A DNA stretch of 34,029 nt from Komagataeibacter xylinus (lineage in GTDB: Bacteria; Pseudomonadota; Alphaproteobacteria; Acetobacterales; Acetobacteraceae): positions 1 through 34,029 of the forward strand of contig NZ_QQBI01000030.1 in NCBI RefSeq assembly GCF_004302915.1, given 5' to 3'. Shown piece by piece: positions 290 to 25,212 of this stretch. Each line of letters begins with the position of its first letter. The stretch's first letter is position 1. The position numbers and the translations under genes were made by a program. Under the pieces are notes generated by a model, which made no database searches, was not told where the DNA came from, and worked only from the letters and a program-made list of their open reading frames with translations.

Positions 290-1696
290 ATGCTTCTGAG
301 CCTTTCCACCACCCATGTGCCCGCGACGGATCTGGGTTTTCTCCTCATGAAGCATCCCGATAACGTGCATCAACTCCAACTCTCGATGGGGCGGGCGTCG
401 CTTTTCTATCCGCAGGCGGATGAAGCGCGCTGCACGGCGGCCATCATGGTCGAGATCGACCCCATCGACCTTGTGCGCGGGCGCGGCCACGCCACGGGCC
501 AGCAGGACAGCTACGTCAATGACCGGCCCTATGCCGCCTCGTCGCTGCTGATGACCGCCATGCGCCGCCTGCTTGGCACCGCCCTGTCCGGTCGCTCGCG
601 CATGCGCCAGGACCTGGCTGATAGCGATATCCCGCTTGAGGTCACCATCACCCCGCTGCCGGTGCGCGGGCCTGCGGACCTCGCCGCGCGCCTGTTCACG
701 CCGCTGGGCTACGAGGTCGAGACCACGCCCATCGTGCTCGATCCCGCCCACCCGGAATGGGGCGACAGCCCTTATGTCACCTTTACGCTCAGGGGCAGGG
801 TGCGGCTGTCCACCCTGCTGCGGCAGCTTTTCCTGCTGGTGCCGGTGCTTGATAACAGCAAGCATTATTACGTGGGCGAGGACGAGGTGGAAAAGCTCCT
901 GCGCGAGGGGGCGGGCTGGCTTGATGCCCACCCCGAGCGCGACCTCATCATCCGCCGTGCCCTCAAGGGGTTCCGTCCGCTCGTGGCGCGTGCGCAGGCG
1001 GAACTCAGCGCGCCCGATGATGCGCCCGCCCCGGCCGAGACCGATGGGCCTGATACGCCAGAAAGGCGGCTCGAGGCCCCCCTGCGCCTGCAGGATGCCC
1101 GCATCGCCCACGTGGTCGAGACCCTGCGCCACCTGCATGCGCATAGCGTGCTTGATTGCGGCTGTGGCGAGGGCGACCTGCTGCGCGCCCTGCTTGCCGT
1201 GCCCGATTTCAGCCGCATCGTGGGCATGGATGTCGCCCCGCATGTGCTGGCGCGCGCGGCGCAGCGGCTGCGGCTTGATGACATGCCCGAGCTTAAGCGC
1301 AGGCGCATCACCCTCATGCAGGGCGCGCTGACCTATCGTGACAGGCGCATGCAGGGGTTTGACGCGGCCTGCGTGATTGAAGTGATCGAACACATGGATG
1401 CCGAGCGCCTGCCTGCCTTCGAACAGGTGCTGTTTGGCCACGCCCGCCCCGGCATTGTCATCGTGACCACGCCCAACCGGGCGTATAATGCCCTGTTCCC
1501 CAACCTGCCCGCCCTTGCCATGCGCCACCCTGACCATCGTTTTGAATGGGATCGCGCCACCTTCAGCCGCTGGGCGCGCGATGTGGCGCAGGCTTATGGC
1601 TACACCGTGGCGTTCGAGGGCATTGGCCCGGTTGACCCCACCCATGGCACGCCCACGCAGATGGCGCTCTTTACGCAGGCAGGACACGAATCATGA
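290..1696 (+). CDS. hen1: Bacterial Hen1, 3'-terminal RNA ribose 2'-O-methyltransferase
   Basis: The product is about 468 aa. Bacterial Hen1 methylates the 2'-OH at the 3' end of a broken RNA before Pnkp seals it, so the repaired tRNA resists being cut again by the same ribotoxin. The N-terminal half (about 1-250) matches the Hen1 module that activates the Pnkp ligase. The C-terminal half is a SAM methyltransferase: VLDCGCGEGD is the SAM-binding loop (about residue 287), EVIEHMD carries the metal-binding Glu/His residues, and TTPNRAYN and HRFEWDRATF are typical of the family. A GTG at 287 directly precedes the ATG at 290. GGAG at 280-283 fits the ATG best. The stop overlaps the pnkp start (ATGA), indicating translational coupling. 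Confidence 0.93.
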   Translation: MLLSLSTTHVPATDLGFLLMKHPDNVHQLQLSMGRASLFYPQADEARCTAAIMVEIDPIDLVRGRGHATGQQDSYVNDRPYAASSLLMTAMRRLLGTALSGRSRMRQDLADSDIPLEVTITPLPVRGPADLAARLFTPLGYEVETTPIVLDPAHPEWGDSPYVTFTLRGRVRLSTLLRQLFLLVPVLDNSKHYYVGEDEVEKLLREGAGWLDAHPERDLIIRRALKGFRPLVARAQAELSAPDDAPAPAETDGPDTPERRLEAPLRLQDARIAHVVETLRHLHAHSVLDCGCGEGDLLRALLAVPDFSRIVGMDVAPHVLARAAQRLRLDDMPELKRRRITLMQGALTYRDRRMQGFDAACVIEVIEHMDAERLPAFEQVLFGHARPGIVIVTTPNRAYNALFPNLPALAMRHPDHRFEWDRATFSRWARDVAQAYGYTVAFEGIGPVDPTHGTPTQMALFTQAGHES

Positions 1697-7200: not shown

Positions 7201-7628
7201 CGCAGGCGGGCGAGAAAGCCATCGGGTGCCAAAAGGCCATCAGGCATGAGGAGATCGGTGTAATCCCCGGCCCCTGCAAACAGGAAAGGCATGCGGTCGT
7301 GCCAGTCATGGCAGGCCTGGAGCACATGCAGCCGGTAGGCTTCCTCATGCCCTTCATGGGCGCAGGGGGCGGCTTCGCGCACGACATGCGGGGTGGTCAG
7401 GCCCATGACATCCATGAAGCGCAGCGCCGTAAAGCGGTTGAACCAGGTGCAGGCCGCCTGTTCGATAACCGCCTCGCGGTTGCGTTCAATGGCGGTCCTC
7501 AGCGCTGTGATTGCCCCGGAGGGAGCGCGTGCTTCCTCGGCAAGCACCCTGTCGAGCCGGGTCGTGACCTGATCGATCATCCAGATGCGTGTAGTCCGGG
7601 CAAAGCGTTTGAGTGCGTTGATATCCAT
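4251..7628 (-). CDS. pglX: PglX-type (BREX-1 family) adenine-specific DNA methyltransferase, without other BREX genes
   Basis: The product is about 1125 aa, close to the 1200 aa typical of BREX-1 PglX. The N-terminus (MDINALKRFARTTR, then ACTWFNRFTALRFMDVMG) is characteristic. The SAM motif CDPACGAGH lies near residue 250, and the amino-methyltransferase motif NPPYMG near 426 predicts N6-adenine methylation. In BREX, PglX marks host DNA and works with BrxA, BrxB, BrxC, PglZ and BrxL; none of these is in the window. The frame opens 69 bp further upstream, but MDINALKRF at 7628 is the conserved start. The start sits behind a weak GGAA within a CAGGCA...TGCCTG inverted repeat. It is probably cotranscribed with the nuclease-like gene ending at 7755. 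It could act as an orphan or as part of an unrecognised system. Confidence 0.85.
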   Translation of the reverse strand: MDINALKRFARTTRIWMIDQVTTRLDRVLAEEARAPSGAITALRTAIERNREAVIEQAACTWFNRFTALRFMDVMGLTTPHVVREAAPCAHEGHEEAYRLHVLQACHDWHDRMPFLFAGAGDYTDLLMPDGLLAPDGFLARLRAVMTEAACQHVEIIGWLYQFYISAKKDAVFAGLKRNIKITPANIPAATQLFTPHWIVRYLVENSLGRLWLRNHPQSALAAKMAYYIAPSAPETDVPPLVRPEDIRLCDPACGAGHMLTYSFDLLYEIYAEAGHAPHEIPGLILTHNLTGIEIDAQAAALAAFALLMKAATRLGRQPFLHLQARPAIVVMRNVTFNQAEMADIAVVLGRDLFTPGLRTLLGQFEQARNLGALIVPAQCDVTGARHRIAACNGGADPRVTNVLARALAVLRMAEALAPRYHVTVANPPYMGAKGMNDALAAFIRANHPHSRCDLFAVFMERALGLTVRHGLMAMITMQSWMFLASYEKLRARLLAETTIMSMAHLGERAFDSIGGAVVSTTAFVIGNTRDAQYEGTFIRLVEGGSEAEKKARLQEAIQHPECGWRHQAAAEDFEQIPGQPIAYWLSENFRQCFSRFPLIGASAAAVCGMTTGENARFVRAWHEVDRNRLKTDAFSPAAARQSGCTWFPYAKGGEFRKWYGNADYVVNWHDDGRAIVASGRAYPRARQRYFSPSVSWSFLSSAYFGVRQQPPGFIFDMAGCSLFPAQPDQISLYTGALCAKTAGLFLQALNPTLNFQVNNVASIPLPEQIDTKAIQAIVQAAVKIGKCDWDGHETSWDFTTLPLLSVACPGDTLARAYTRLRARWQGMTDAMARLEEDNNRLFINAYGLHDELTPDVPARDITLTCNPAYRYGGPRAADGEARLRADTVAELLHYAVGCLFGRYSLDAPGLILARQGAGLEAYFARVPHPRFAPVRDNVIPVLEEDGLGDDIVTAVCQFLRVSFGVAQFHENLAFIERALGKDLRRWFSRDFFDDHVKRYRKRPVYWMFSSPDGHFNALVYMHRYQRETVSTVLASLRQFIARLAREQARLHRQAKDAGSLPHQRSRAQKESRAVAARIKALGAWADGVLHPLAQQGITLDLDAGVRRNYRLFAGALKPIRGVPD

Positions 7629-7754
7629 CAGGCAGGCATCTTCCTGCCTGCGCGGGCCCGGACCAATAGGGTCTTTGTCATGTGATGGAGGTAGCACACC
7701 CCATCATGTTTTCGAGGCCGGTTGTGCCCATGACAGAAACGCCGCTGCTAGGCC

Positions 7755-8777
7755 TCATGCATGGGCGTGCGTCAGGTCGCTGCGGGCCAGATCAAGCATT
7801 GTCATCACCTCGCGCAGGAAGGCGACCGTCGCGTTGAAATCGAGAAGGCCCTTCTGGTCAAGTTTGATCCAATCAGGGCCGGTGCCAACGCATGCGGCGG
7901 CCATGGAGCGTCCATTTCCACGCCGTGCGGGGCGCTGGATGGTGATGCCCGTCTGCCTGCTGGTAGCCTCGAGTGTCTTGAGCCACCGGTCCCTGACAGA
8001 TGCACAGACGGCAGGGGGATGCTTCGTGTGCCAGCAGCCCAGCCTCAGAACGAGGGATTCCTGTTCGATCTGCAGATAGGTTTCCCAGCCAGACCAGGCG
8101 CCATAATGCCACCACGCGCCCATGAAGCCGCCTCGGGGGTTGGCAACATATCCCCACCTGAGGTCGGGAAAGACGTGTTGCAAGGCCAGAAAAAAGCCTT
8201 CCCACGCCTGGCTGGGCCATTGGGCAACAGGGAGGGTGAGGAAGCTTTGCGTTTTTTCTTCACGACATTCCAGTGAAGATAAAAAATCATCAATAATGTT
8301 ATTTTCCAGGCCATCTGCTGTTATTTTTCGTAAAACAGATAGAAAGTCATGCCTTAGAAACAGGCTATAGCCGGATTGTTCTGCTTTTTTGTAATTGGAC
8401 TGGTTTCCCGTCTTGCAGAAGATGGGAAGAACGGCCCGCTGTGGATAATGTTCTTGCAGGACTGCATGATAACGTTTCAATTGATCGCCATGCTCGCAGG
8501 TGTCGGTCTTGTCCTCAATGAGCAGAACAAGATTCTCACCCACCTCAGCAATCACATCGATTGAATAAAACTGCTTTTTGACACGGACTGTCGTGCCTGA
8601 AACAGGCGGTTGATTGCTGTGTTGCAGCAGGGCATTGAGGAAGGTTAGGCCCGTCGCGTGCATGGCGGGGTTTTTGGCTGCATTGCTTCTGTCGGCCCAG
8701 CTTAACAACCAGCAGATAAAGGCATCCTGCGATAGTTCAGACGTGGCCCAATAGAACAGATTGGTATTGTAGGTCAT
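7755..8777 (-). CDS. PD-(D/E)XK nuclease superfamily protein (PDDEXK_4 type)
   Basis: The 340-aa product begins with a helical segment, FYWATSELSQDAFICWLLSWAD, that recurs in PD-(D/E)XK proteins of Pfam PF14281. It is followed by a nuclease core, IDVIAEVGENLVLLIEDKT, giving the Asp...(Glu)-Asp-Lys triad, then an LKRYHAVL helix. The C-terminal half, rich in Trp, is not recognised. It lies 126 bp upstream of the pglX-like gene on the same strand. Cleavage activity is inferred, not shown. Its start is preceded by AGGAAAAG at some distance. Upstream DNA is clearly more AT-rich than the flanking core genes, suggesting foreign origin. Confidence 0.75.
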   Translation of the reverse strand: MTYNTNLFYWATSELSQDAFICWLLSWADRSNAAKNPAMHATGLTFLNALLQHSNQPPVSGTTVRVKKQFYSIDVIAEVGENLVLLIEDKTDTCEHGDQLKRYHAVLQEHYPQRAVLPIFCKTGNQSNYKKAEQSGYSLFLRHDFLSVLRKITADGLENNIIDDFLSSLECREEKTQSFLTLPVAQWPSQAWEGFFLALQHVFPDLRWGYVANPRGGFMGAWWHYGAWSGWETYLQIEQESLVLRLGCWHTKHPPAVCASVRDRWLKTLEATSRQTGITIQRPARRGNGRSMAAACVGTGPDWIKLDQKGLLDFNATVAFLREVMTMLDLARSDLTHAHA

Positions 8778-8848
8778 GTAAATAAATACTTTTCCTGTAG
8801 ATTGAATTAAAAAATAAAAACATTGATCTAATAATTTATTGCACTTAT

Positions 8849-8875
8849 TTTCCTTAACCTGTGACCGTAAGGAAA
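8849..8875. repeat. 8-bp inverted repeat upstream of the nuclease gene
   Basis: TTTCCTTA (8849-8856) and TAAGGAAA (8868-8875) are separated by 11 bp. The pair sits in the very AT-rich gap between the end of the WYL frame and the nuclease start at 8777. Its place in the promoter region fits an operator. It has no U-tract on the minus strand, so it is a poor terminator for the WYL gene. Confidence 0.3.
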
Positions 8876-8912
8876 TTTTTAAATGCCTGATACGTCAAAA
8901 ATGGTCGTCGTT

Positions 8913-9008
8913 TCATGAAAAATTGTGTTTGGGCACTTTTTCATGATGGGCCAGAGCTGCGGCAAGCCTATTGCAGAGTTCTTCCCTCAAAGATGCCGGT
9001 TCAAGGAT
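8913..9008 (-). pseudogene. Detached C-terminal tail of the WYL regulator, beyond an in-frame stop
   Basis: Reading on in the same frame past the TAA at 9009-9011 gives ILEPASLREEL, a short linker, RLAAALAHHEK and a few more residues before a TGA at 8913-8915. The pattern of a strand ending in LEP followed by xLRxxL and a final helix is the usual end of WYL-domain regulators. The stop therefore appears to interrupt an ancestral longer protein by about 31 residues. Sequencing error, a recent nonsense mutation and readthrough of TAA are all possible. Confidence 0.7.
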
Positions 9009-9908
9009 TTATACTGCGGTTCCCCATGTAAACAGGTGATTTTCCATTTCAATAGAACTGCCAGCAATGAACTGGACAATCAGGCTGCCATCTTGTTGGG
9101 GGTGTAAAGTCTGGTTGGGATGAAAGAGAAAGCGGGCGGCGTCATTGGCTGCTGCTGGCGTAAAGCGCAGGGTAATGCGCTGCGGTTTTTCCTGAAAAAC
9201 ACCAAATGAACGTGCCGCAAAAGCAGAGATTGACCAGCCTGCTGGTGGCGGAACGGCCTGCCCATGTATTTCAGGAGATCTGATCTTGTCAAAACGCCAG
9301 AGGGCAGGCTGGGCCTTGCCCGTGGCAGGCCCGACCAGATAGTAAGCACGTCCGTAAAGGATGCCCCAGGGGGAGACCGTGCGGTGAGAATTGGCATTAT
9401 GCCCATAAGTAAAGGTTAAATAATTGCCGCCTTTCAGGGCCGTGCGCACAATTTCCAACGTATGCGGATCAGCAAAAGGTTGAGGACCAACCTGCGTGAC
9501 GTAACCTGTGGCTACGGTCAGGGCATTGATATCGGGTGCCAGTTTATGTCTGTCTGTCGGGCGCAAGGCCGCCTCGATCTTTTGGCCGAGTGCTGTCAGC
9601 AGATGGGCGCGGGCAGAACAGCCGCCCTGTTGCAGGGCGGTAGCGGCAGCATACAGTTCCGCAAGTTCATCAGATGTGGGTGCCTGCAGGAAGCGATCGA
9701 GGCCACCTGTCATACGAAAGCGCAGCTTATGCCCGTCTGAAATGGCTTCGAGTTGCGGAAAAATCTCTTCAATAGCGGCTTTCAGGCGTTCTGCCGTCCG
9801 GCGGCTGACTGTGTAGGTGGCGGCAATTTCATCAAGCGTCATGCCCTCGGCTGTTCCAGCCAATGCGCGCGCAAGCTTGATGAGCAGGGCTGCTTTTTCA
9901 AATCGCAT
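9009..9908 (-). CDS. WYL-domain transcriptional regulator, apparently truncated at its C-terminus
   Basis: The product is about 299 aa from the ATG at 9908. That start has GAAGG eight bases upstream; an ATG at 9923 overlaps this ribosome site and is less likely. The N-terminal winged helix-turn-helix includes MTLDEIAATYTVSRRTAERL. The WYL core includes YLTFTYGHN and GRAYYLVGPATGKAQPALWR, and a WCX-like C-terminal region follows. WYL regulators of the BrxR/CapW type commonly repress defence operons and respond to nucleic-acid or nucleotide signals. Lying between nuclease genes and a pglX-like gene fits that role. A TAA cuts the frame just before the last conserved helix, so dimerisation or repression may be impaired. 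Confidence 0.8.
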   Translation of the reverse strand: MRFEKAALLIKLARALAGTAEGMTLDEIAATYTVSRRTAERLKAAIEEIFPQLEAISDGHKLRFRMTGGLDRFLQAPTSDELAELYAAATALQQGGCSARAHLLTALGQKIEAALRPTDRHKLAPDINALTVATGYVTQVGPQPFADPHTLEIVRTALKGGNYLTFTYGHNANSHRTVSPWGILYGRAYYLVGPATGKAQPALWRFDKIRSPEIHGQAVPPPAGWSISAFAARSFGVFQEKPQRITLRFTPAAANDAARFLFHPNQTLHPQQDGSLIVQFIAGSSIEMENHLFTWGTAV

Positions 9909-9926
9909 GGTGCCGACCTTCATTAT

Positions 9927-9947
9927 CTACGACCGTTTCTGACGTAG
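9927..9947. promoter_or_regulatory. Candidate operator of the WYL regulator (CTACG-N11-CGTAG)
   Basis: CTACG (9927-9931) and CGTAG (9943-9947) are inverted around a centre at 9937, and 7 of 10 positions per half-site match. The site begins about 19 bp upstream of the preferred WYL start codon, a common place for an autoregulatory operator. Assignment to this regulator rests only on position. Confidence 0.3.
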
Positions 9948-10044
9948 GTGGGCATTATTAAAGGTGAAGGAAGCCGTCAAGCAGGGAAAGGGTAGTGCGG
10001 GTTTTGTATAGGCTTATGCTGAACGGGGGCGGCCGTTGGCTGCT

Positions 10045-10176
10045 ATGGCAGCGGCGGTGCAAGCCGGAGATGGCCTGCCTGGCTATACCGGTAGCACCGT
10101 GAGTATGTGCAACGGGAATTTCATCTACGTTTATAATGTGAGTGGCCGCCAGAAATCCTGTCTTTCAGCGCGATAA
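10045..10176 (+). CDS. Possible small ORF of 43 codons, unknown
   Basis: The frame runs from ATG 10045 to TAA 10174-10176 and is open upstream to a TAG at 10009. It contains GLPGYTGSTVSMCNGNF. Its base composition is closer to coding DNA than the AT-rich sequence to its right. There is no convincing ribosome site and no recognisable domain. It may be a remnant of a decayed gene or pure chance. Confidence 0.2.
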   Translation: MAAAVQAGDGLPGYTGSTVSMCNGNFIYVYNVSGRQKSCLSAR

Positions 10177-10349
10177 ACCGTAGAATATTTATGCCATTTT
10201 CATATTATTGATATGATCAATTAATGCAAATACTTTCTGTTTTAATATGACAAGCTTACACAAATCATATGATGATACGATTTATTCAATAAGAATAATT
10301 TTTTCTATCCATTTAATCAATAATATATATGAATATAAGGAGAAATGTC

Positions 10350-11078
10350 TTGAATTCCGTCAATTTTGGTACAGATGCTGATATGGCACTATGCCGCCGA
10401 CTGCCGACGTTGTTAGATTCCATACGGCCACTGCTTGGCGCGCATGATCCGGTTTCTTCCGTTGTGCCTGATGTGCTGCCAGACCGTATTGTAGAGCTGA
10501 CCAATATGATTATGCCGCTGCATAATCAGGCATGGGCGCGTGGTGATGCGATTGATATATGGGATGTGGCAGGCCTGAAGTCTAATGAAGGCCGTAACAG
10601 CGCGGTTCTGGGGTGGCTGCTGGACCCGAAGGGCACCCATGGCTGGGGCGCGCGCCTGCTCCGTGATGTGTTGCGCTTGGCAGGGGATCGATATCCACAC
10701 TGGCCCCGTCTGGACAAAGACCTGGACCATGTATCGGTCGTGACCGAGTGCTGGCCCGCAGGCAGCACAACCGAGCGCGTTGATATTGCTATTGATGGCG
10801 ATGATTTCGTGCTTTTCATCGAGATCAAGATACAGGCACGCGAAGGCGAGCAGCAACTGGCCCGTTACGTGAAGGTAGCCGAGGCAAAACGACAGATTAC
10901 CGGCAAACAGTACGGGCTGGTTCTCTATCTGAGCGCCATTGCGCCGGTTGATCCGCCTGAAGAAGTGGCGCTCATGACCTGGCGTGATGTGGCAGATATT
11001 CTGGCCCGTTTCCCGAAAAGCGGCTTCAATGGTGTCATTACGCAGCAGTTTGCACAGCATATCCAGAAATTTTATTGA
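10350..11078 (+). CDS. PD-(D/E)XK nuclease superfamily protein, first gene of a two-gene unit
   Basis: The product is about 242 aa. The nuclease core is ERVDIAIDGDDFVLFIEIKI (about residues 140-160), giving Asp...Glu-x-Lys, followed by the helix EGEQQLARYVKV. NSAVLGWLLDPKGTHGWG upstream is the N-terminal helix of the PDDEXK_4 group, which the gene at 7755-8777 also resembles. AAGGAG (10337-10342) is well spaced for a TTG start at 10350; an in-frame ATG at 10329 has no ribosome site. An out-of-frame ATG-TCT-TGA at 10345-10353 overlaps the TTG. The gene ends 12 bp before the acidic partner gene, so both are probably one transcript. Substrate and activity are unknown. Confidence 0.7.
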   Translation: MNSVNFGTDADMALCRRLPTLLDSIRPLLGAHDPVSSVVPDVLPDRIVELTNMIMPLHNQAWARGDAIDIWDVAGLKSNEGRNSAVLGWLLDPKGTHGWGARLLRDVLRLAGDRYPHWPRLDKDLDHVSVVTECWPAGSTTERVDIAIDGDDFVLFIEIKIQAREGEQQLARYVKVAEAKRQITGKQYGLVLYLSAIAPVDPPEEVALMTWRDVADILARFPKSGFNGVITQQFAQHIQKFY

Positions 11079-11090
11079 GGAGAAAAAGAA

Positions 11091-11681
11091 ATGAATAGTC
11101 CTGAACTGAACAAGGCCCTTGTTGAGAACCTTGCCGACCTTGAGGCGACGGCAACACGCCTCCATATGCTTGATGATGCGCTTGGTGCCGCTATTGATGC
11201 AGATACGAATAAATGGATGGCTGAGAATAACTGGTCCGGAGACACGGATGAAGATGATGGATGGGTCGCGCCGAAAGGAGAGGGGTGGTACAACCCTGAC
11301 GACGATGAGCCTAATGGTGCCTTTTTTGAATGGGCAGACTTTGAAGACCAGGCCGAAGATAATTATTACGTTACGCAACTCTGCCAGCTAGGGCAGGATA
11401 AAGTTGGCATTCGCTTTGTGCAGGACCAGATCGGACGTGCGCAATGGAAAAAAATAGTGCCTGAACTGGCAGAACTGGTCAGTGGAACTGGTTTTATACT
11501 TGAGGAAAAGAAGCTGAGCTTCTTCCTGCCTGTCAAAATCGATCAGAAAATTCTGGCATCCAGTCTGGGGGATGACGACATGGAAGCCGGGCTGAAACAG
11601 TATCGGGAAGCCCTGGATCAGCTTTTAAAGGCCAGAACAGCTTTTGACAAAGTGATTGCCCGCATCAAGCAGGTTGGTTGA
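11091..11681 (+). CDS. Acidic protein of unknown function, partner of the upstream nuclease-like protein
   Basis: The 196-aa product was not recognised. The first 35 residues form a likely amphipathic helix. A highly acidic, Trp-rich stretch follows (SGDTDEDDGWV, NPDDDEPNGAFFEW, then FEDQAEDNYYV). The C-terminus returns to helices (LKQYREALDQLLKART). There is no signal peptide or membrane segment. GAGGAG lies just before the ATG, and only 12 bp separate it from the nuclease gene. An acidic DNA-mimic-like inhibitor or a complex subunit is conceivable, but this is inference from charge and context only. Confidence 0.65.
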   Translation: MNSPELNKALVENLADLEATATRLHMLDDALGAAIDADTNKWMAENNWSGDTDEDDGWVAPKGEGWYNPDDDEPNGAFFEWADFEDQAEDNYYVTQLCQLGQDKVGIRFVQDQIGRAQWKKIVPELAELVSGTGFILEEKKLSFFLPVKIDQKILASSLGDDDMEAGLKQYREALDQLLKARTAFDKVIARIKQVG

Positions 11682-11699
11682 TGTAAAGTAAGCACCCCA

Positions 11700-11737
11700 T
11701 GCGAACCAGCGGGCACGTTGTCTTCCGCTGGTTCGCA
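11700..11737. terminator. 13-bp perfect hairpin after the nuclease/acidic-protein pair
   Basis: TGCGAACCAGCGG (11700-11712) and CCGCTGGTTCGCA (11725-11737) form a perfect 13-bp stem with a 12-nt loop, lengthened by CAT/ATG past one bulge. It starts 18 bp after the stop of the acidic-protein gene. No U-tract follows, so it would be an unusual terminator. An RNA-stabilising 3' structure is an alternative. Confidence 0.45.
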
Positions 11738-11835
11738 ATGAACAAGCCATAAAAGACGCAAAAGATAAGATGGGCCGTTATGATGCCGGTCAGCAAGAGG
11801 GACGTATCCCTTTTGTGATGCCCATCGCACACGGG

Positions 11836-11910
11836 CGTTTTTGGGGAAGCTTTTCTCAAAAGCCTGGAAGAGGGTCACTGTTTGGAAAAATGTGGTCCCT
11901 TAAAAACAAT
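11836..11910 (-). repeat. Possible degraded, inverted copy of the hairpin repeat
   Basis: CGTTTTTGGGGAAGCTTTTC (from 11836) closely matches the reverse complement of the AGCTTCACCAAAAACTT part of the copies at 29691 and 30910. The segment to about 11905 is roughly compatible with a decayed hairpin half. Identity falls off quickly, so this is tentative. Confidence 0.3.
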
Positions 11911-11927
11911 GCTATTTTATGTATCCG

Positions 11928-12015
11928 TGGTGCGAGCTGCGGGACTCGAACCCGCACGCCCAGTTACAGGCGCAAGATTTTAAGTCTCGTGCGTCTACCA
12001 TTCCGCCAAGCTCGC
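11928..12015 (-). tRNA. tRNA-Leu (anticodon UAA), CCA encoded
   Basis: On the minus strand the gene begins GCGAGCTTGGCGGAATGGTA and ends with the paired acceptor strand AGCTCGC, discriminator A and an encoded CCA at 11930-11928. The anticodon stem CGAGA/TCTTG encloses the loop CTTAAAA, anticodon TAA. A variable arm longer than in class I tRNAs and the T-loop GGTTCGAGTCC fit class II tRNA-Leu. The 3' end points toward the accessory genes at left, the orientation expected where islands integrate into tRNA genes. No integrase or second copy of the tRNA end was seen. Confidence 0.95.
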
Positions 12016-15768: not shown

Positions 15769-16203
15769 TTATCTGCCGCGACCGGACAGGCTGCGCAGCA
15801 GCCCCCATACCGCCCGGAAGGTGTGGCGGGTGAGTGGTCCCGCCACCGTGGTGGCCACGGCGGACAGGGCCACGGTCTGCCGCAGTTCGTTCAGGGCGTG
15901 TTCGCGTGCGAATCGGACGCGGATTTCCTCTGGCGTCATGTAGGAGCGGCGGCCCATCACCAGGCCCATGAGCACCACCAGCACATCGGCTGCGAAGACC
16001 ATGCCTGCCGCGCCAAGGGCGCTGAAGCCCAGGGTCTGGTAACAGAAGGCCCACAGCAGCCCATGGCCCGAAATGACGGCAAAGAAGGCAAATATCGCCG
16101 CCACAACCAGGAACGCGGCCTGACGACCAAGACGGATCGCCATCAGTTTACGTAGGGTCAGCTCCCCCTCAATGATGGTTTTACCGATTTCGCCTATTCT
16201 CAT
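15769..16203 (-). CDS. Phage-holin-superfamily/YqjE-like membrane protein
   Basis: The 144-aa product has an amphipathic N-terminus (EIGKTIIEGELTLRKLMAIR) followed by two strong membrane helices (about 29-55 and 62-85) and a cytosolic C-terminal helical region. This is the layout of the PF07332-type proteins to which E. coli YqjE belongs. It starts 40 bp after the YqjD/ElaB-like gene on the same strand, an association also found in enterobacteria. It is not expected to be a phage lysis protein. The cellular role is unclear. Confidence 0.7.
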   Translation of the reverse strand: MRIGEIGKTIIEGELTLRKLMAIRLGRQAAFLVVAAIFAFFAVISGHGLLWAFCYQTLGFSALGAAGMVFAADVLVVLMGLVMGRRSYMTPEEIRVRFAREHALNELRQTVALSAVATTVAGPLTRHTFRAVWGLLRSLSGRGR

Positions 16204-16605: not shown

Positions 16606-17718
16606 ATGTCTCCTTTCTCCTCACGGCTGGTTGCAAGCGCGCTGGCCGCCTCTCCCGGCGCGCCGGGCCTGTCCTTTTCGGCACAGGCCGGGGCGTGCCT
16701 GGCCATTGTCAATGAGCAGGCGGCGTGCCTGAGCACGGTTGCCGACCTGCTTGCGGGCCATGTGCCGGCAGGGGCCGGGCAGCTCATGGTCGATGGCGTG
16801 GATGTCACGGCCCTTGCGCCCGAGGCACGCCCATGCACGCTGGTTGGCTGGCGTGACCCGCTGTTCATGCACATGAACGTGCAGGCCAACCTGGCCTTCG
16901 GGCTGCGGGCGCGGGGCATGGAGTCGCAGGCGGTGATGGCGCGGGTGCGCGGCGTGCTGGCCCTGCTGGGGCTTGACGGGCTGGAGCAGGCCCGCCCGGC
17001 AACGCTGCCCCCCGAGCAGGCGCTGCGCGTCATGCTGGGCCGCGCCCTTGTGTTCGAGCCGCCCGTGCTGGTGCTTGAAGATGTCTTTGCCCCGCTGCCT
17101 GCCGCCAGTCGCCGCGCCATGCGCCGCCTGGTAGGCCGCCTTGTGCACGCGCGGGGGCTGTGCGTGGTGCTGCTGACCCGCGCGCGTGAGGATGCCCTGC
17201 TGCTTGGCGATACGATTGCCTGCATGCACGGCATGGACGTGCTGCAGGTCGGCACGGCGCGCGACCTGTTCGAGCGCCCCGCCTGCGACCGCGTGGCCAC
17301 CGAATTTGGCGATGCCAATGCCCTGACCGTGCGCGTGGCCAGCGTGGAGGATGACGTGGCGCTGGCCCACCTGCCCGGCGGCCTGCCGGTCGAGGCCATG
17401 GCCATGCCCGGTGTCGTGGCGGACCAGCTGGCCACATTGTGCATCCGTCCCGACCGGGTGGCGGTGATGTTTCCCTCCCGTCCCGGCATGGCGGCGGCCG
17501 ACCCCGACGAGCCGCCCCTGCTCACGGCGACGTTGACCGACCTGCGCCAGATGGGTGACCACGTGCTGCTGCGCCTGCGGCTGGAAAATGGGGTGGAACT
17601 GCTCGTGCGCCGCCCCCCCACCGCCGCCCTGCAGCGCGTGGCGCCGGGGCAGGCGGCGGTGCTGGCGTGGCAGCCCGCGCAGGCAATGGCCTTTCCGTTC
17701 CGGGGTGAAATGGAGTAG
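16606..17718 (+). CDS. PotA-like ABC ATPase homologue lacking all catalytic motifs
   Basis: The 370-aa product aligns along its length with polyamine/iron-type ABC ATPases: a VDGVDVTALAPEAR segment, NLAFGLRARGM, and a C-terminal TOBE-like region containing CIRPDRVAV. Yet Walker A (residues 36-44) reads NEQAACLST with Leu in place of the Lys. The Q-loop Gln is replaced (VGWRDPLF). The signature LSGGQ is LPPEQ (134-138). Walker B ends LEDVF instead of LDEP (157-161). The D-loop is APLP, and the switch His is Arg192 (LLTRA). ATP hydrolysis therefore looks impossible. The frame is intact and GC-rich as in neighbours. It is followed by binding-protein and permease genes. Confidence 0.75.
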   Translation: MSPFSSRLVASALAASPGAPGLSFSAQAGACLAIVNEQAACLSTVADLLAGHVPAGAGQLMVDGVDVTALAPEARPCTLVGWRDPLFMHMNVQANLAFGLRARGMESQAVMARVRGVLALLGLDGLEQARPATLPPEQALRVMLGRALVFEPPVLVLEDVFAPLPAASRRAMRRLVGRLVHARGLCVVLLTRAREDALLLGDTIACMHGMDVLQVGTARDLFERPACDRVATEFGDANALTVRVASVEDDVALAHLPGGLPVEAMAMPGVVADQLATLCIRPDRVAVMFPSRPGMAAADPDEPPLLTATLTDLRQMGDHVLLRLRLENGVELLVRRPPTAALQRVAPGQAAVLAWQPAQAMAFPFRGEME

Positions 17719-17762
17719 CGTCCGCCATCTTCCGCCCCCGCCCGAAAGGCTGTTTCCCACCC

Positions 17763-18782
17763 GTGTTCCAGATTGTGTCCCGCCGTTCCCTTAGCGCCAT
17801 CCTGCCCGGCCTGCTCGTGGCCCTGACCGCCCTGCCCGTGCCGGTGGCTGGCGTGCAGGCGGCAGCGCGCACCCGGCACAGCCCCGCGCTGGTGGTGGCC
17901 AGCACGGAGCCGCAGCTGGGCCCGGCGCAGGATGCCGCGTTTTTCCAGCCCTTTACGCGGGCCACGGGGCAGCCTGTTACGCGCCGGGCGTGGACGGGCG
18001 CGCTGTCGGACCTCGAGCCCCAGGGCGGGGGTGCCAGCGCCTGGTCGCTCGCCTTTGCCGAGGACAGCACCATCCGCGCCGCCTGCATGCAGGGCCTTGT
18101 GGTGCATCTGGCAGGCAGCGCCACCAACCCCGATGGCTGCGGCGCGCCGGGGCTGGCAACACAGCTCGTGGTGGCATGGGACCAGACATGGCGTGACAGC
18201 GCGCCGCGATGGAATGATTTCTGGGACATCGTGCGCTTTCCGGGCAAGCGTGGCCTGCGGCGCGACCCGCGCACCACGCTCGAGATCGCGCTGCTGGCTG
18301 ATGGCGTGCCGCCCGCCCAGGTTTATGGCGAGCTTTCCACGCCGCAGGGCGTTGACCGCGCCTTTCGCAAGCTCAGCCAGCTACGTCCTTATATAACGTG
18401 GTGGTCTACCCCGGCCGAGGCCGCAAGCCTCCTGTCACGCAAGCAGGTGCTCATGGGCAGCGCGCCGCGTGAGGCCGTGGACAGCATCGCCACGCATGAC
18501 GGGCAGGTGAGGATTGGCGTCAATGCCGACATGGCGCTGTCCTATGACCTGTCATGGGCGGTGGTGGCGGGCCAGTCCGCCGAGCGGCTGGGTCGGTCGC
18601 GCGACCTGCTGCATTTCATCGTGCAGCCGGACCGGCAGGGTGCTTTCGTGGCGGCCATGCCCGCAGGGCCGTCCGGCTCGGGCCATCCGGCGGCCCTGCT
18701 GCCCATGGATGTGCAGTTCTGGCAGGTGAATTACGCGCCCCTGTCCCGGCGGTTCGCATTATGGCTGCGCAAGGCGGGCTGA
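17763..18782 (+). CDS. PotD-like periplasmic solute-binding protein
   Basis: The product is 339 aa from a GTG start. A Sec signal peptide is visible (SLSAILPGLLVALTALPVPV, cleavage near VQA-AAR). The mature part has features of spermidine/putrescine-type binding proteins: RWNDFWDIVRFPGKRGLRR, LEIALLADGV, GVDRAFRKLSQLRPYITWW, and an MGSAPREAVD segment corresponding to the MxWNGR region. It starts 44 bp after the degenerate ATPase gene and overlaps the permease start by one base (TGATG). Ligand unknown. Confidence 0.75.
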   Translation: MFQIVSRRSLSAILPGLLVALTALPVPVAGVQAAARTRHSPALVVASTEPQLGPAQDAAFFQPFTRATGQPVTRRAWTGALSDLEPQGGGASAWSLAFAEDSTIRAACMQGLVVHLAGSATNPDGCGAPGLATQLVVAWDQTWRDSAPRWNDFWDIVRFPGKRGLRRDPRTTLEIALLADGVPPAQVYGELSTPQGVDRAFRKLSQLRPYITWWSTPAEAASLLSRKQVLMGSAPREAVDSIATHDGQVRIGVNADMALSYDLSWAVVAGQSAERLGRSRDLLHFIVQPDRQGAFVAAMPAGPSGSGHPAALLPMDVQFWQVNYAPLSRRFALWLRKAG

Positions 18783-19246
18783 TGCTGCCCCCCCTTTCCA
18801 CCCATCCGCTCGGCACGCTGGTGGCCGATGGCTGCGGCACCGCGCTGGGGCTTGTGATGGCCTGCATGCTGGTGCTGGGCGCGCAGGCCCTGCTGCACCG
18901 GGCCTGGCCCGCGCGGTGCGTGCTACTGCGCGGGCTCATGCTCGCTCTCATGCTGCCGGGGCTGGCGCTGGCATTGCTTTGGCCGGGCCTTGCGGGGCAC
19001 GGTGGCGGCATGGGGAGCGTGGCGCAGGGGGCGCTCGTGGCCCCTGCGGCCCTGTGGCCGCTGCTGCGCGTGCTTGATGCCGTGCCGCCCGGCCTGTCGC
19101 GCACGGCGCGCGGGCTTGGCGCGGGGAGGCTGGCGCTGCTGCGGCTGGTGTGGCGGCCCCTGCTGGCGGGTCCGGTAGCAGGGGTGGGCGCGTTCTGCGC
19201 GGTGATGACCGTGCTGTGCGCCATGGCGGCAGTGGCATTGCAATGA
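18782..19246 (+). CDS. Shortened ABC-permease-like membrane protein
   Basis: The product is 154 aa with about four membrane helices, compared with roughly 260-280 aa and six helices for normal importer permeases. TARGLGAGRLALLRLVWRPL corresponds to the EAA loop that docks on the ATPase (consensus AA..LGA......F..V.LP). The ATG overlaps the upstream stop (TGATG). No frameshift was seen, and no second permease gene is present. The protein may be a reduced, specialised permease or a decaying gene. Confidence 0.65.
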   Translation: MLPPLSTHPLGTLVADGCGTALGLVMACMLVLGAQALLHRAWPARCVLLRGLMLALMLPGLALALLWPGLAGHGGGMGSVAQGALVAPAALWPLLRVLDAVPPGLSRTARGLGAGRLALLRLVWRPLLAGPVAGVGAFCAVMTVLCAMAAVALQ

Positions 19247-19280: not shown

Positions 19281-19769
19281 ATGACTGATGAGACCCCCCC
19301 TTTCTGGGAGACGACGCCGCTTGCGCAGATGACCCGCGCGCAGTGGGAATCGTTGTGCGATGGCTGCGGGCGGTGCTGCCTGCACAAGCTGCGCGAGGAC
19401 GAGACGGATGAGGTGCTGTTTACCGATGTCGCCTGCCGCCTGCTCGATACCAGGACCTGCCTGTGCACCGATTACGCCCACCGCCACCGCCGCGTGCAGG
19501 ACTGCATCAGCCTGACGGCGGAGATGCTGGCCGATATCGACTGGCTGCCGCCTACCTGCGGTTACGTGCTGGTGCGCGATGGCGAGCCGCTGCCCTGGTG
19601 GCACCCGCTGGTGTCCGGCACGCACGAGACGGTGCATGAGGCGGGCATATCGGTCAGTGGCCGGGTCATCAGCGAGCGTAAGGCGGGCCTGCTGGAAGAC
19701 CACATCATCGACTGGCCCGGCGAGGCCCCGAAGGATGCATTCTGCCGCACCCGCCCGCGCGGGCGCTGA
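19281..19769 (+). CDS. YcgN/UPF0260-family cysteine-cluster protein
   Basis: The 162-aa product has the diagnostic CDGCGRCCLHKL near residue 26, then CRLLDTRTCLCTDYAHRH and further Cys residues in the C-terminal half (about eight in all). This fits the family of putative metal- or Fe-S-binding proteins without known function. AGGA lies ahead of the ATG. Its stop overlaps the next start (TGATG), indicating translational coupling. Confidence 0.88.
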   Translation: MTDETPPFWETTPLAQMTRAQWESLCDGCGRCCLHKLREDETDEVLFTDVACRLLDTRTCLCTDYAHRHRRVQDCISLTAEMLADIDWLPPTCGYVLVRDGEPLPWWHPLVSGTHETVHEAGISVSGRVISERKAGLLEDHIIDWPGEAPKDAFCRTRPRGR

Positions 19770-20488
19770 TGGCGCAGGGCGCGGGGCAGGATAACGGGCT
19801 CGAGCTCGTGCCCATCGCATCGGGGTCGGTGCCGGTGCGGTGGCGGGTCTCCGCGCGGGCGCGGCGGATTTCCATGCGCATCGACCCCGTGGCGGGGCAT
19901 GTGGTCATGACCCTGCCGCGCGCGGCCCGCAGGGCGGATGGGCTGGCCCTGCTCCGCGCCCATTCAGGCTGGGTCGCGGCCGGTCTTGCACGCCTGCCGC
20001 CTGCTGCCGAACTGCGCCATGGCGGGCATGTGCTGCTTGATGGCCAGAGCCGCGAGATCGTGCACTGCCCCGAGGCCCGGCGCGGCGTGTGGCTGGAAGA
20101 AGGCCTGCTGCATGTGAGTGGCGCGGCCGAGTTCATCTCCCGGCGTGTCATGGCCTATCTGCGCGCGCAGGCGCAGGTGCTGCTGCCCGCGCGCCTGCGC
20201 CTTCAGGCCGAGGCCAGCGGCCTGCGCCCCACCCAGCTCAGGCTGCGCGATACGAAAAGCCGCTGGGGCAGCTGCTCATCCGATGGCAGCATCATGCTGT
20301 GCTGGCGGCTGGTCATGGCCCCGCAGGAGGTACAGCATTACATCATCGCCCACGAACTCGCCCATCTGCGGCACATGAATCACGGGCCGGATTTCTGGCT
20401 GCTGGTTGATCAGCTTACTCCCCACCGCCGCCAGGCCGAGAAATGGCTGCGGGCCAATGGGGCGAGCCTGCACCGGCTGGCAGGCTGA
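19769..20488 (+). CDS. YgjP/SprT-like M48-type zinc metallopeptidase
   Basis: The 239-aa product has a C-terminal domain with RWGSCSSDGSIMLCWRLV, then the zinc motif HELAHLRHMNHG (HExxH plus downstream His) and FW...L as in DUF45/YgjP proteins. The N-terminal half is a beta-rich region typical of the family. It has no signal peptide, so it is probably cytosolic. It overlaps the YcgN-like gene by one base, and the pair likely forms one transcript ended by the hairpin at 20515-20541. Its substrate is unknown. Confidence 0.85.
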   Translation: MAQGAGQDNGLELVPIASGSVPVRWRVSARARRISMRIDPVAGHVVMTLPRAARRADGLALLRAHSGWVAAGLARLPPAAELRHGGHVLLDGQSREIVHCPEARRGVWLEEGLLHVSGAAEFISRRVMAYLRAQAQVLLPARLRLQAEASGLRPTQLRLRDTKSRWGSCSSDGSIMLCWRLVMAPQEVQHYIIAHELAHLRHMNHGPDFWLLVDQLTPHRRQAEKWLRANGASLHRLAG

Positions 20489-20494
20489 AAGGAA

Positions 20495-20550
20495 AAAAGT
20501 AAAAGTTGCTGGGGACCGCCTTTTTTCAAAAAGGCGGTGTTCTTTCAAGC
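20495..20550. repeat. Hairpin repeat copy 1, acting as a bidirectional terminator
   Basis: ACCGCC (20515-20520), a T-run, and GGCGGT (20533-20538) form a stem with T-rich flanks. It resembles copies at 29691 and 30910 in the order AGTT...G-(A/T)CCGCC-T(n)-GGCGG-GTTCTTT. The copy ends inside the stop codon of the NAD kinase gene. It separates two convergent genes and should terminate both. Confidence 0.7.
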
Positions 20551-22307: not shown

Positions 22308-23297
22308 ATGGCCTTCTGGTTCAATATTGAAAAATCAATGGCACATTCCTCATCTTCCCGAACGGTCATCTTCGCGGCCCTTGGCGGCAACCTGCTGGTG
22401 GCGGCCACCAAATTTGGCGCGGCTTTCCTGACCGGCAGCGCCTCCATGCTCAGCGAGGCCATCCATTCCCTGATCGATACCGGCAACCAGGGCCTGCTGC
22501 TCGTGGGCATGAAGCGCGCGACCCGCCCGGCCACGGCCACGCACCCGTTCGGCTACGGGCTGGAGCTGTATTTCTGGACCTTCGTGGTGGCGCTGCTCAT
22601 CTTCGGGCTGGGCGCCGGGGTGTCACTGTATGAGGGGATCATCCACATCATCCACCCGCAGCCGGTGGCGCATGTGCTGGTCAATTACGCCGTGCTGGTG
22701 GCGAGCATCGTGTTTGAAGGCTCGGTGTGGCTGATGGCGCTGCGGGCCTTCCGCAAGGAGGGCAAGGGCCGGCGCGGCTGGGTGGAAGCCGTGCAGATGA
22801 GCAAGGACCCCACCGTGTTTACCGTATTGTTCGAGGATACGGCGGCGCTGAGCGGGCTGTTCGTGGCGCTTCTGGGCAATGTGCTGGCCGAGTGGCTGGA
22901 CATGCCGGTGCTTGATGGCGTGGCGTCGATCATCATCGCCTTCATCCTTGCGGTCACGGCGACCTTCCTCGCGCGCGAATCCCAGTCGCTGCTGACGGGC
23001 GAGGGCGTTGCGCCGGAAGTGCTGCGCGCGCTGCGCACCATGGCGCTGGAGGCGGACGGCGTGGAGCGGCTGAACGAGATCCGCTCCATGCATTTTGGCC
23101 CGCGCGACGTGCTGGTGGTGATCAGCCTCGATTTTCGCAATGACATGACGGCGGGGCAGGTCGAGATCGTGGTCAGCACGCTCGAGCGCCAGATCAAGCA
23201 GGCCTACCCCGAGGTCACGCGCGTGTTCATCGAGGCGCAGGACAGCCGTGGCCAGCCTGCCGCCACCGCCGCCCGCGGCACGGCCGTCACCCCATGA
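22308..23297 (+). CDS. Cation diffusion facilitator family transporter (SLC30A9-like branch)
   Basis: The 329-aa product has six membrane helices. SEAIHSLIDTGNQGLLL (about 44-60) is the first metal site (HxxxD), followed by the HPFGYG motif. FTVLFEDTAALSGL gives acidic ligands in helix 5, as in the SLC30A9-like branch rather than the classic HxxxD pair. A cytosolic C-terminal ferredoxin-like domain follows, and there is no His-rich loop. Zinc or manganese export is likely but not shown. Starts at 22308 or 22338 are both possible. The 3' end overlaps convergent serB by 11 bp. Confidence 0.85.
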   Translation: MAFWFNIEKSMAHSSSSRTVIFAALGGNLLVAATKFGAAFLTGSASMLSEAIHSLIDTGNQGLLLVGMKRATRPATATHPFGYGLELYFWTFVVALLIFGLGAGVSLYEGIIHIIHPQPVAHVLVNYAVLVASIVFEGSVWLMALRAFRKEGKGRRGWVEAVQMSKDPTVFTVLFEDTAALSGLFVALLGNVLAEWLDMPVLDGVASIIIAFILAVTATFLARESQSLLTGEGVAPEVLRALRTMALEADGVERLNEIRSMHFGPRDVLVVISLDFRNDMTAGQVEIVVSTLERQIKQAYPEVTRVFIEAQDSRGQPAATAARGTAVTP

Positions 23298-24177
23298 CGA
23301 ATTCCGCCGCCCGGTAGCCCTGCGCGAACAGAAGGCTGCGCAGCGTGGTGGCGTTGACCTGGTTGCTGATCTCGCGCCGCACGGCGGGCTTGGCATGGAA
23401 GGCGATGCCCAGCCCCGCAACCCGCAGCATGGCAAGGTCGTTCGCGCCATCGCCCGTGGCCAGCGCATCCGCCTCGCTCACGCCCTGGGTGGCGGCAAGA
23501 CGCCGCAGGTGCGCAAGCTTGGCATCCGGGCCCAGAATGGGCTGGCCCACCTCGCCGGTCAGGCTGTCGCCTGCGGCAAGCAGGGTATTGGCATGGTTTT
23601 CATCAAAGCCGCACAGACCGGCCACCCGGCTGGTAAAGAACGTGAACCCGCCAGACACCAGCGCCGTGCGCGCGCCACCCGCCCGCATGGTGCGCACCAG
23701 TTCGACTGCGCCCGTGTTGAGCCTGACGTCCTTCCACGCTTTTTCCAGCAAGGTCACGGGCAGGCCGCGCAGCAGGGCCACGCGCTCGCGCAGGGCGGCT
23801 TCGAATTCGATCTCGCCATTCATGGAGCGGCGCGTGATTTCGGCAATCTTCTCGCCAATGCCGGCATGGGCCGCGATGTCGTCCAGCGTTTCGCAACTGA
23901 CAATGGTGCTGTCCATGTCAGCCACCAGCACGCGCTTGCGGCGGCCGCCAGCGGGCGTTACCAGCACGTCGATATGGCCCTTGGCAAAAACGGCGCGCAG
24001 GGCTGCGATATCAGGGGTGGTGCAGGCCATCTCGACCGCTTCCCCTTCCGACAGGGTCACGGGGGCGGCAGCGCCGGCAAGGTCGCGCGCGGCTTCGATA
24101 TCGACCGCCGTGAGCGATGTGGCCTCGCGGTTGGCCACCAGTACAAGGGTATGGGCGTGGGAAGGGGAATCAGCCAT
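23287..24177 (-). CDS. serB: Phosphoserine phosphatase
   Basis: The 296-aa product makes L-serine from O-phosphoserine. The haloacid-dehalogenase motif I DMDSTIVSCE gives catalytic Asp87 and Asp89. LVSGGFTFF is motif II, and GDGANDLAMLRVAG is motif IV. An N-terminal regulatory domain of about 80 residues resembles those of other SerB proteins. It is divergent from miaA with only 30 bp between start codons, so the promoters overlap or lie inside the opposite gene. Confidence 0.94.
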   Translation of the reverse strand: MADSPSHAHTLVLVANREATSLTAVDIEAARDLAGAAAPVTLSEGEAVEMACTTPDIAALRAVFAKGHIDVLVTPAGGRRKRVLVADMDSTIVSCETLDDIAAHAGIGEKIAEITRRSMNGEIEFEAALRERVALLRGLPVTLLEKAWKDVRLNTGAVELVRTMRAGGARTALVSGGFTFFTSRVAGLCGFDENHANTLLAAGDSLTGEVGQPILGPDAKLAHLRRLAATQGVSEADALATGDGANDLAMLRVAGLGIAFHAKPAVRREISNQVNATTLRSLLFAQGYRAAEFVMG

Positions 24178-24207
24178 GGGGTCCGGGTCAGTGAAAGGGA
24201 TGAAACA

Positions 24208-25212
24208 ATGACACGCCCCCCTTCAGGGCAGGCGCGCGTGGCGCTAATCGTGGCGGGTCCGACCTGTTCGGGCAAGTCCGCACTCGCGCTGGCGCTTGCC
24301 CGCGAGGTGGGGGGCACCATCATCAACGCCGATTCGATGCAGGTCTACCGCGACCTGCGCATTCTCACCGCCCGCCCCACCGTGGCGGAGGAAGCCTGCG
24401 TGCCCCATGCGCTGTATGGCGTGCTGCCCGCAGCATGCAATGGCTCGGTGGCGTGGTGGCGCGAACAGGCGCTGGCGGCGGCGGAGAACGCGTGGAATGC
24501 CGGGCGCATGCCGATATTCTGTGGCGGCACGGGCATGTATTTCCGCGCCCTGACCGATGGGCTGGTGGATATTCCCCAGCCGCCGCCCGCCATCCGCGAA
24601 CACGCGCGCGCCCTGCTGGCCGAACTGGGCGCCCCCGCCCTGCATGCCCGCCTGCTGCAGCTTGACCCCGAAACCGCCGCCACCCTGCGCCCCAATGATG
24701 GCCAGCGCCTTGCCCGCGCGTGGGAGGTACATGCCGCCACGGGCCATGGCATGGCATGGTGGCGGAGCAAAGCCGTGCTGCCCGGGCTTGACGCCCGCTT
24801 CATTGCCATAAGGCTGCACCCCGCGCGTGACGGGCTGCGCGCGGCCATTGCCCGGCGCTTTCATGCCATGCTTGGGCAGGGCGCCATGGCGGAGGTGGAA
24901 GCCCTGCTGGCGCAGGGCCTGCCGCCTGACCTGCCCGCCATGCGGGCCCATGGCGTGCCCGAACTTGCCGCCGTACTGCGCGGCGAGATGACGCGGGCGG
25001 ATGCGGCGGCGCGCGCCATCCAGTTGACCGGGCAATATACGAAGCGGCAGGCCACATGGTTTGCCCATCATGCGTGTGCTGCCCCGGCGGACACGTTTTT
25101 ATATGAAAAACGGTTTGAAAAAGACGAAGCTGCGCAACAAATGGAAAGGGTAGGCGATAAAATCATTTCTTTTGTTATTAAACGCATTGACGCGGGCCAA
25201 GGCTTTCCGTAA
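24208..25212 (+). CDS. miaA: tRNA dimethylallyltransferase
   Basis: The 334-aa product adds dimethylallyl to A37 of tRNAs reading UNN codons. The P-loop GPTCSGKS is at residues 17-24, followed by INADSMQVYRDLRILTARPT with the tRNA/DMAPP-site residues. GGTGMYFRAL and QYTKRQATWF are also diagnostic. The start ATG at 24208 has AAAGGGA upstream. The C-terminus is slightly long and charged. The tRNA-Leu(UAA) at 11928 belongs to the UNN-decoding class, a typical substrate group. Confidence 0.95.
   Translation: MTRPPSGQARVALIVAGPTCSGKSALALALAREVGGTIINADSMQVYRDLRILTARPTVAEEACVPHALYGVLPAACNGSVAWWREQALAAAENAWNAGRMPIFCGGTGMYFRALTDGLVDIPQPPPAIREHARALLAELGAPALHARLLQLDPETAATLRPNDGQRLARAWEVHAATGHGMAWWRSKAVLPGLDARFIAIRLHPARDGLRAAIARRFHAMLGQGAMAEVEALLAQGLPPDLPAMRAHGVPELAAVLRGEMTRADAAARAIQLTGQYTKRQATWFAHHACAAPADTFLYEKRFEKDEAAQQMERVGDKIISFVIKRIDAGQGFP

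Follow-up and report, generated by a model that had tools for sequence, protein, structure and literature searches.

What can the frame of an ATP-binding cassette (ABC) importer still be used for when its ATPase has lost the residues needed for catalysis? This question is raised by positions 16606-19246 of a 34,029-nucleotide stretch of Komagataeibacter xylinus DNA (contig NZ_QQBI01000030.1; the whole stretch analysed is called the window), where three importer-like genes, referred to below as the trio, follow one another:

16606-17718, plus strand: pseudo-ATPase of 370 residues with a PotA-like nucleotide-binding domain (NBD) fold and a TOBE domain (Pfam, orthologues, motif tally)
17763-18782, plus strand: pseudo-binding protein of 339 residues with the SBP_bac_8 fold (Pfam, structure model, fold matches)
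18782-19246, plus strand: mini-permease of 154 residues with four long helices (structure model, orthologues)

As had been stated in an earlier account made from the letters alone (the sequence-only reading), all three frames are open and coupled, with 44 bases between the pseudo-ATPase stop and the binding-protein start and a single base shared between the binding-protein TGA and the mini-permease ATG at 18782. A new role other than pumping is considered most likely, because the ATP-burning parts, and probably also those with which cargo was held and moved, have been lost yet selection preserves the trio. That the three products form a conserved membrane complex, derived from an ABC importer and no longer pumping by ATP hydrolysis, is given an even chance on the comparisons described below, and any single task proposed for such a complex is held with less confidence than that.

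The NBD and TOBE folds of the pseudo-ATPase were recognisable by sequence, both Pfam scores being above cut-off (27.9 bits against 25 for ABC_tran and 50.1 bits against 21 for TOBE_2, the latter in agreement with the TOBE-like tail described in the sequence-only reading), and a profile match to 3d31_A spanned positions 21-346. The score against NCBIfam potA (TIGR01187) was 141.5 bits where 355.6 are required for membership, and scores fell far below cut-off for all of the best 25 of 120 curated ABC ATPase families. When the protein was aligned with three ordinary ATPases that this genome encodes, with positions checked, Leu42 was found where the Walker A Lys is expected. Further replacements were Trp82 at the position of the Q-loop Gln, LPPEQ instead of the LSGGQ signature, Glu158-Asp159 instead of the Walker B Asp-Glu, Pro165 for the D-loop Asp and Arg192 for the switch His, so that every motif loss previously claimed for this protein was confirmed. 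The segments concerned, together with the TOBE domain, are:

16711-16737, plus strand: former Walker A, residues 36-44, NEQAACLST (alignment)
16846-16872, plus strand: Q-loop and docking cleft, residues 81-89, GWRDPLFMH (alignment, residue counts)
17005-17022, plus strand: former ABC signature, residues 134-139, LPPEQA (alignment)
17077-17100, plus strand: former Walker B and D-loop, residues 158-165, EDVFAPLP (alignment)
17173-17193, plus strand: former H-switch, residues 190-196, with Arg192 (alignment)
17437-17694, plus strand: TOBE_2 domain, residues 278-363 (Pfam, E = 2.9e-13; conservation; omega below that of the NBD portion)

In an excerpt of PMC7658222, the catalytic site of MalK is numbered K42, Q82, D158 and E159, and because these numbers coincide, the pseudo-ATPase frame appears to have the same length as MalK up to Walker B; the same excerpt gives MalK residues F81-Y87 as the cleft that receives the permease coupling helix. 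As a control within the genome, an ABC-domain search in which the window protein scored 30.6 bits was inspected, and the best 30 of the 79 matches listed all keep GK[S/T] (29 by pattern, 1 by eye).

Loss of the catalytic residues was also evident from counts over 88 orthologues, of which 58, the window included, are loci from a scan of named genomes and 30 are from a search of the family, two sets that overlap and share species. These were set against 28 comparison proteins: 21 ordinary ones, three paralogues from the same genome and three intermediates, with L084 as a single pseudo member. None of the 88 orthologues retains the Walker A Lys (27/28 in the comparison proteins), the Q-loop Gln (25/28), the first signature Gly (24/28), the catalytic Glu (26/28) or the switch His (24/28), and none of the 36 that remained after thinning at 80% identity keeps any of the five. 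The motif loss is thus fixed rather than drifting. By comparison, residues of the docking cleft are near-fixed among the same 88 proteins (Arg83 in 86, Asp84 in 83, Pro85 in 86, Leu86 in 84 and Phe87 in 85), in a stretch where ordinary ATPases carry Gln-Ser-Tyr-Ala-Leu-Phe. Asp47 of the pseudo-ATPase occurs in 87/88 and Arg107 of the mini-permease in 85/86, and a contact between the two is possible. In MalK, Arg47 lies opposite a Glu of the EAA loop. A salt bridge reversed with respect to that of MalK was considered for Asp47 and Arg107 and rejected, as Arg107 is present in 14/14 aligned ordinary permeases and Met47 in 20/28 ordinary ATPases.

The same division was noted in site entropies of eight regions, calculated for the 36 thinned orthologues and for the 21 ordinary proteins; the ordinary-set mean is missing for two regions, and the sets differ in depth so that only the pattern is interpretable. 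The former Walker A was the most variable of the eight (2.33 bits as opposed to 0.06 in ordinary proteins) and the signature was also variable (1.91 versus 0.00), while values were 1.05 versus 0.42 for the docking cleft and 1.49 versus 1.62 for TOBE positions 245-290. In this pattern the catalytic regions vary freely, with cleft, linker and TOBE held. These values bear on the suggestion that the pseudo-ATPase still binds nucleotide or another ligand in an altered pocket. The Walker B Asp, although absent from the window protein, is still present in 68/88 orthologues, which speaks for such a pocket, but none of the regions compared varied more than the former P-loop, in which no substitute Lys is conserved, and an altered pocket is considered improbable.

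The distribution of the trio was determined from an ATPase search of 200 Acetobacteraceae genomes, of which 55 gave a match with E <=1e-40, followed by six-frame scanning of the surroundings in the 54 genomes other than that of the window (55 stretches). The window-type ATPase was found in 31/55 genomes (30 plus the window), one more (L084) had the trio only and 23 had ordinary or intermediate ATPases. The order ATPase, binding protein, permease, YcgN, YgjP was noted in 30 of the 31, the contig of the other ending after the ATPase. In the scan of named genomes, 57 of 59 loci were kept, making 58 with the window; L171 and L172, of Rhodobacter type and 25-27% identical over 204 residues, were excluded as chance relatives. 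The kept loci were from Komagataeibacter, Gluconacetobacter, Novacetimonas, Nguyenibacter, Tanticharoenia, Gluconobacter, Swaminathania, Brytella, Ameyamaea, Acidomonas and Neokomagataea, with four more uncultured, and the same five-gene order was present in 57/58 loci, window included. The 58th, from Ameyamaea (L076/L161), ends with its contig after the ATPase so that order cannot be checked; alignments A1-A3 do not include L076, and L077 is also missing from A2. The constant neighbours and other features that flank the trio in the window are:

19281-19769, plus strand: YcgN-family cysteine-cluster protein, constant downstream neighbour (NCBIfam, above cut-off)
19769-20488, plus strand: YgjP-like metallopeptidase-domain protein, constant downstream neighbour (Pfam, 5.3e-44)
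20515-20538, plus strand: terminator-like hairpin after the YgjP gene (consensus match only; 10 such sites found in the scanned stretch where 2.6 are expected)
15769-16203, minus strand: small, weakly holin-like membrane protein whose gene diverges from the trio (Phage_holin_3_6, 15.4 bits against a cut-off of 28.4)

No family above cut-off was given by Pfam for the small membrane protein, a homologue of which lies upstream of the trio in 42/42 loci with enough flank.

When the family was searched with a permease profile, 80 of its 397 sampled genomes gave a match of 5.6e-15 or better in a short frame, including 14/14 of the window's own genus. In the class, 289 genomes (286 from other families) gave no short-frame match as strong, the best in another family being 4.6e-15 in a frame of 265 residues. 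Scores alone do not divide the two groups cleanly, the weakest mini-permease being at 5.6e-15 (G219, 201-residue frame) and the best ordinary permease at 2.3e-14 (300 residues), and very diverged mini-permeases would escape such a search. Among the genomes sampled, only part of the Acetobacteraceae has the system. Coexistence of the trio with an intact copy was rejected: the ordinary ATPase had no near relative among the matches listed for 27 trio-bearing genomes (best E from 5.8e-39 to 4.9e-81), whereas three genomes that have the ordinary operon gave matches of 5.9e-170 or better.

Purifying selection on all three genes was evident from pairwise estimates of the ratio of nonsynonymous to synonymous change (omega, dN/dS), calculated by the method of Nei and Gojobori with our own script. 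Median values for Komagataeibacter, Gluconacetobacter and Gluconobacter, respectively, were 0.19, 0.28 and 0.09 for the ATPase, 0.30, 0.23 and 0.12 for the binding protein and 0.43, 0.50 and 0.12 for the permease, compared with 0.08, 0.16 and 0.05 for YcgN and 0.17, 0.26 and 0.14 for YgjP. Within the ATPase, omega was lower for the TOBE part than for the NBD part in 3/3 genera, and 19 positions of the protein were invariant among 30 sequences. The sequence-only reading had proposed dN/dS and motif conservation across orthologues as its checks; the former was purifying (median pairwise omega 0.09-0.50) and the latter gave a loss that is itself conserved. Thus, its statement that the locus is not in simple decay was upheld by open frames, fixed order and purifying omega across genera. 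The contrary case that it had named, of close relatives with intact motifs together with relaxed selection here, was looked for and not seen, and intact motifs were restricted to relatives further removed, which carry them at a different chromosomal site.

Gradual decay of a one-time importer that is heading for loss could account for the changes in all three parts and for the fast evolution of the permease, and in the family sample most relatives whose genomes are small (about 2 Mb) gave no mini-permease match. Neither a median omega near 1 nor broken frames were found, however, and the low medians, the open frames in an order that does not change across 10 named genera, the invariant ATPase positions and the retention of the trio in every genome of the genus sampled all argue against it. 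Decay was rejected on omega and orthologues and is regarded as very improbable.

The core of a type I importer permease has at least five helices. In a model of the mini-permease built from a 30-row alignment (mean predicted local distance difference test score, pLDDT, of 89), helices were placed at residues 10-41, 43-70, 75-100, 104-111 (short, coupling) and 116-153, that is, three long helices before the coupling helix and one after it, so that the five-helix core is not present while the coupling helix is retained. Type I permeases, with PotC, CmpB and ModB among them, ranked first when this model was searched with Foldseek, and ordinary permeases extend about 60 residues beyond the end of the match. 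Permease length across loci was 133-186 residues in the named-genome loci where a start could be placed and 109-163 residues in the 30 loci of the family search. The permease of 154 residues with an EAA-like loop described in the sequence-only reading was found with its start at 18782 and its coupling helix kept:

19091-19165, plus strand: coupling helix and EAA-like motif, residues 104-128, RTARGLGA..W.PLL (model helix 104-111, conservation)

Conservation was concentrated in this region (Arg107 in 85/86 and Leu112, Gly113 and Pro126 each in 86/86), and outside it the mean column identity was 33% with five invariant columns. A passive channel or facilitator, in which two mini-permeases make up a pore gated without ATP by the pseudo-ATPase and the binding-protein relative, would fit with the persistence of a membrane part with a conserved coupling helix and with retention of the whole set. 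A selective pore would not usually be so poorly conserved beyond the coupling region, and the chance of a passive channel is considered slim.

Transport driven by another ATPase, as had also been suggested for this locus, would require that a shared, MsmX-like NBD be borrowed, with the local ATPase as a regulator. Shared NBDs are described for type I sugar importers in the excerpt of PMC7658222, other ATPases of Pot/Ugp type, 28-34% identical, are encoded in the genome, and Arg107 is ancestral-like so that an ordinary NBD could in principle dock. The mini-permease, however, has no helix corresponding to one that ordinarily follows the coupling helix, and the dead ATPase is present in every complete locus with its docking cleft conserved and would compete for the site. 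The suggestion thus found no support, and a borrowed NBD is thought quite unlikely.

The binding protein matched SBP_bac_8 (81.1 bits, Pfam), has an N-terminus that resembles a signal peptide as judged by eye and gave a two-lobed model (29 rows, pLDDT 86). The folds nearest to this model were 4i1d from Bradyrhizobium and AgtB, MotA and Atu4243 (the last for gamma-aminobutyric acid, GABA) from Agrobacterium, with Foldseek E values of about 1e-18 to 1e-21, and 4i1d was also matched by sequence (E 3.5e-23). The protein had been called normal-looking, which did not survive comparison with its relatives. Asp95, Glu103, Glu114, Glu228 and Asn275 are each shared by 16-19 of 19 ordinary relatives but occur in only 0-3 of 86 orthologues, and the N-lobe segment around Pro63-Phe64 is absent from 38/86. 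From their conservation in the family, the five lost residues are probably ligand residues. Twelve scaffold positions that were checked, among them Cys108, Cys126, Trp150, Gly161, Arg163, Glu174, Asp180, Gly181, Tyr188, Trp213-214 and Trp320, are present in 85-86 of 86.

In the complex proposed here, the pseudo-ATPase would lie beneath the mini-permease, making contact through the coupling helix, and would be held together by its TOBE domains, while the binding-protein relative would cap the complex on the periplasmic side. With less assurance, the complex may act as a signalling or scaffold unit and not as a transporter, and, more speculatively, the TOBE end could be the cytoplasmic contact for a partner. 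A sensor role is compatible with the comparisons made. The repurposing put forward in the sequence-only reading is thus supported in part, in that the motif loss is conserved and selection is purifying. Separate new roles for the three proteins, with no complex and with synteny that is simply inherited, would fit with the loss by each part of its own signature residues and with YcgN and YgjP, which co-travel with the trio without obvious link. The conserved parts are nevertheless the coupling helix and the cleft for its docking, neither of which is meaningful without the other, and the trio moved jointly in genome G117, and separate roles are considered rather unlikely. A function in anti-phage defence was rejected, as PADLOC gave no convincing or useful match (best mad3, E 0.001, 16.7 bits over 70 residues).

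Several observations weigh against a non-pumping complex. The permease is the loosest of the three genes, with omega reaching 0.88 in one pair; its BPD_transp_1 score of 19.8 bits is near noise and under the Pfam cut-off of 26.4; and nothing below E 0.001 was obtained with its model in Foldseek (best 0.11, template modelling score 0.53). Both lobes are retained in the model of the window binding protein so that ligand binding is possible, the Walker B Asp persists in most orthologues, and Arg107, being shared with the aligned ordinary permeases, provides no special compensation. No sensory partner for the trio was identified, and the link with YcgN and YgjP may be incidental, the trio being apart from that pair in G117.

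The origin of the trio was examined in a midpoint-rooted tree of 59 ATPases, in which the 31 pseudo-ATPases and L084 made up a single clade (support 100/99), joined next by L099 (99/83), with L086 and L105 at the base of the ordinary side. The last three look like intermediates: all retain the Walker A Lys, with SPEQ, SRAE and SPAE among them as signatures and Arg for the switch His, and L086 and L099 are also without the Q-loop Gln. All three are divergent to an ECH_2 gene, which lies upstream, on the opposite strand, of 13/21 ordinary operons; in L099, the only intermediate whose contig continues, no binding protein or permease follows. In G117, the L084 trio lies at 4875-7624 without YcgN and YgjP, which are elsewhere in that genome, and its permease match is the most worn (9e-7). 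We read these comparisons as erosion of the ATPase at the original ECH_2 site, with signature and switch lost before Walker A, and as a separate move of the trio to the site between the divergent small membrane gene and the YcgN-YgjP pair; descent would then be from an Acetobacteraceae operon of PotA/Atu4243 type. Tentatively, the trio may represent an ATP-free class of complexes derived from ABC importers. A pseudo-ATPase would be retained in it with a pseudo-permease of four helices and a pseudo-binding protein for signalling or scaffolding in acetic-acid bacteria, and the surviving intermediates would show in what order an ABC ATPase can be dismantled while the complex persists.

Elsewhere in the window, G+C is 0.47-0.55 at 8001-12000 as opposed to 0.61-0.73 in the remainder, and this stretch resembles a foreign island. 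It encodes a WYL-domain protein (9009-9923, minus strand) and a PDDEXK_4 nuclease-like protein (10329-11078, plus strand). A weak PDDEXK_4 nuclease-like protein is at 7755-8777 (minus strand). Near the island, a PNKP-ligase protein of 847 residues with kinase, phosphatase and ligase parts (1693-4236, plus strand) adjoins an Eco57I-type restriction-methylase protein of 1148 residues (4251-7697, minus strand). At 23248-25212 (plus strand), an IPP transferase (MiaA-type) match covers only residues 365-607 of a 654-residue frame, which probably places the true start well downstream of the one listed.

Among known systems, the PotABCD-type spermidine/putrescine importer (structure 8y5f) is matched by the trio over the full length of the ATPase, NBD and TOBE included, and by the permease model, for which PotC came first. 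The trio differs from it in lacking the five catalytic residues, in its altered binding protein and in having one permease of 154 residues where PotABCD has two of about 250-290. The nearest relatives among the loci fetched are the ordinary ABC, binding protein, permease, permease operons beside ECH_2 (L085, L087, L102 and others), which have the same initial gene order but, unlike the trio, have intact motifs, two full-size permeases and no YcgN-YgjP neighbour. Atu4243, MotA, AgtB and 4i1d share the fold of the binding protein, with the family-conserved residues replaced in the trio. Degenerate ATP sites in ABC proteins are usually paired with a working one; those of type I exporters, SUR1 and CFTR do not hydrolyse ATP, with non-pump use in SUR1 and CFTR. 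In each of these proteins, one site or more still binds or cleaves ATP, whereas the only ATPase gene of the present operon is without Walker A. The phosphate importer PstSCAB keeps an active ATPase and transports. It is an example of an ABC importer that doubles as a sensing and signalling complex (PMC5775613). Because several of the defining features tested fail, the trio is not filed as a type I ABC importer despite its importer frame. No description of such a system was found among the papers listed in searches of the open-access literature.

Genes of this kind pass as importers, which is a warning for annotation pipelines. An arrayed knockout collection of G. oxydans exists, according to the portions of PMC12041372 and PMC8602642 that describe it. 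Gluconobacter and Komagataeibacter are genetically tractable, and the question is therefore directly testable in the bacteria that carry the trio. If the proposed explanation is true, an importer set whose sole ATPase is dead but which is kept by selection among acetic-acid bacteria would show what the frame of an ABC importer does without ATP, and would separate the docking and TOBE residues from the catalytic ones.

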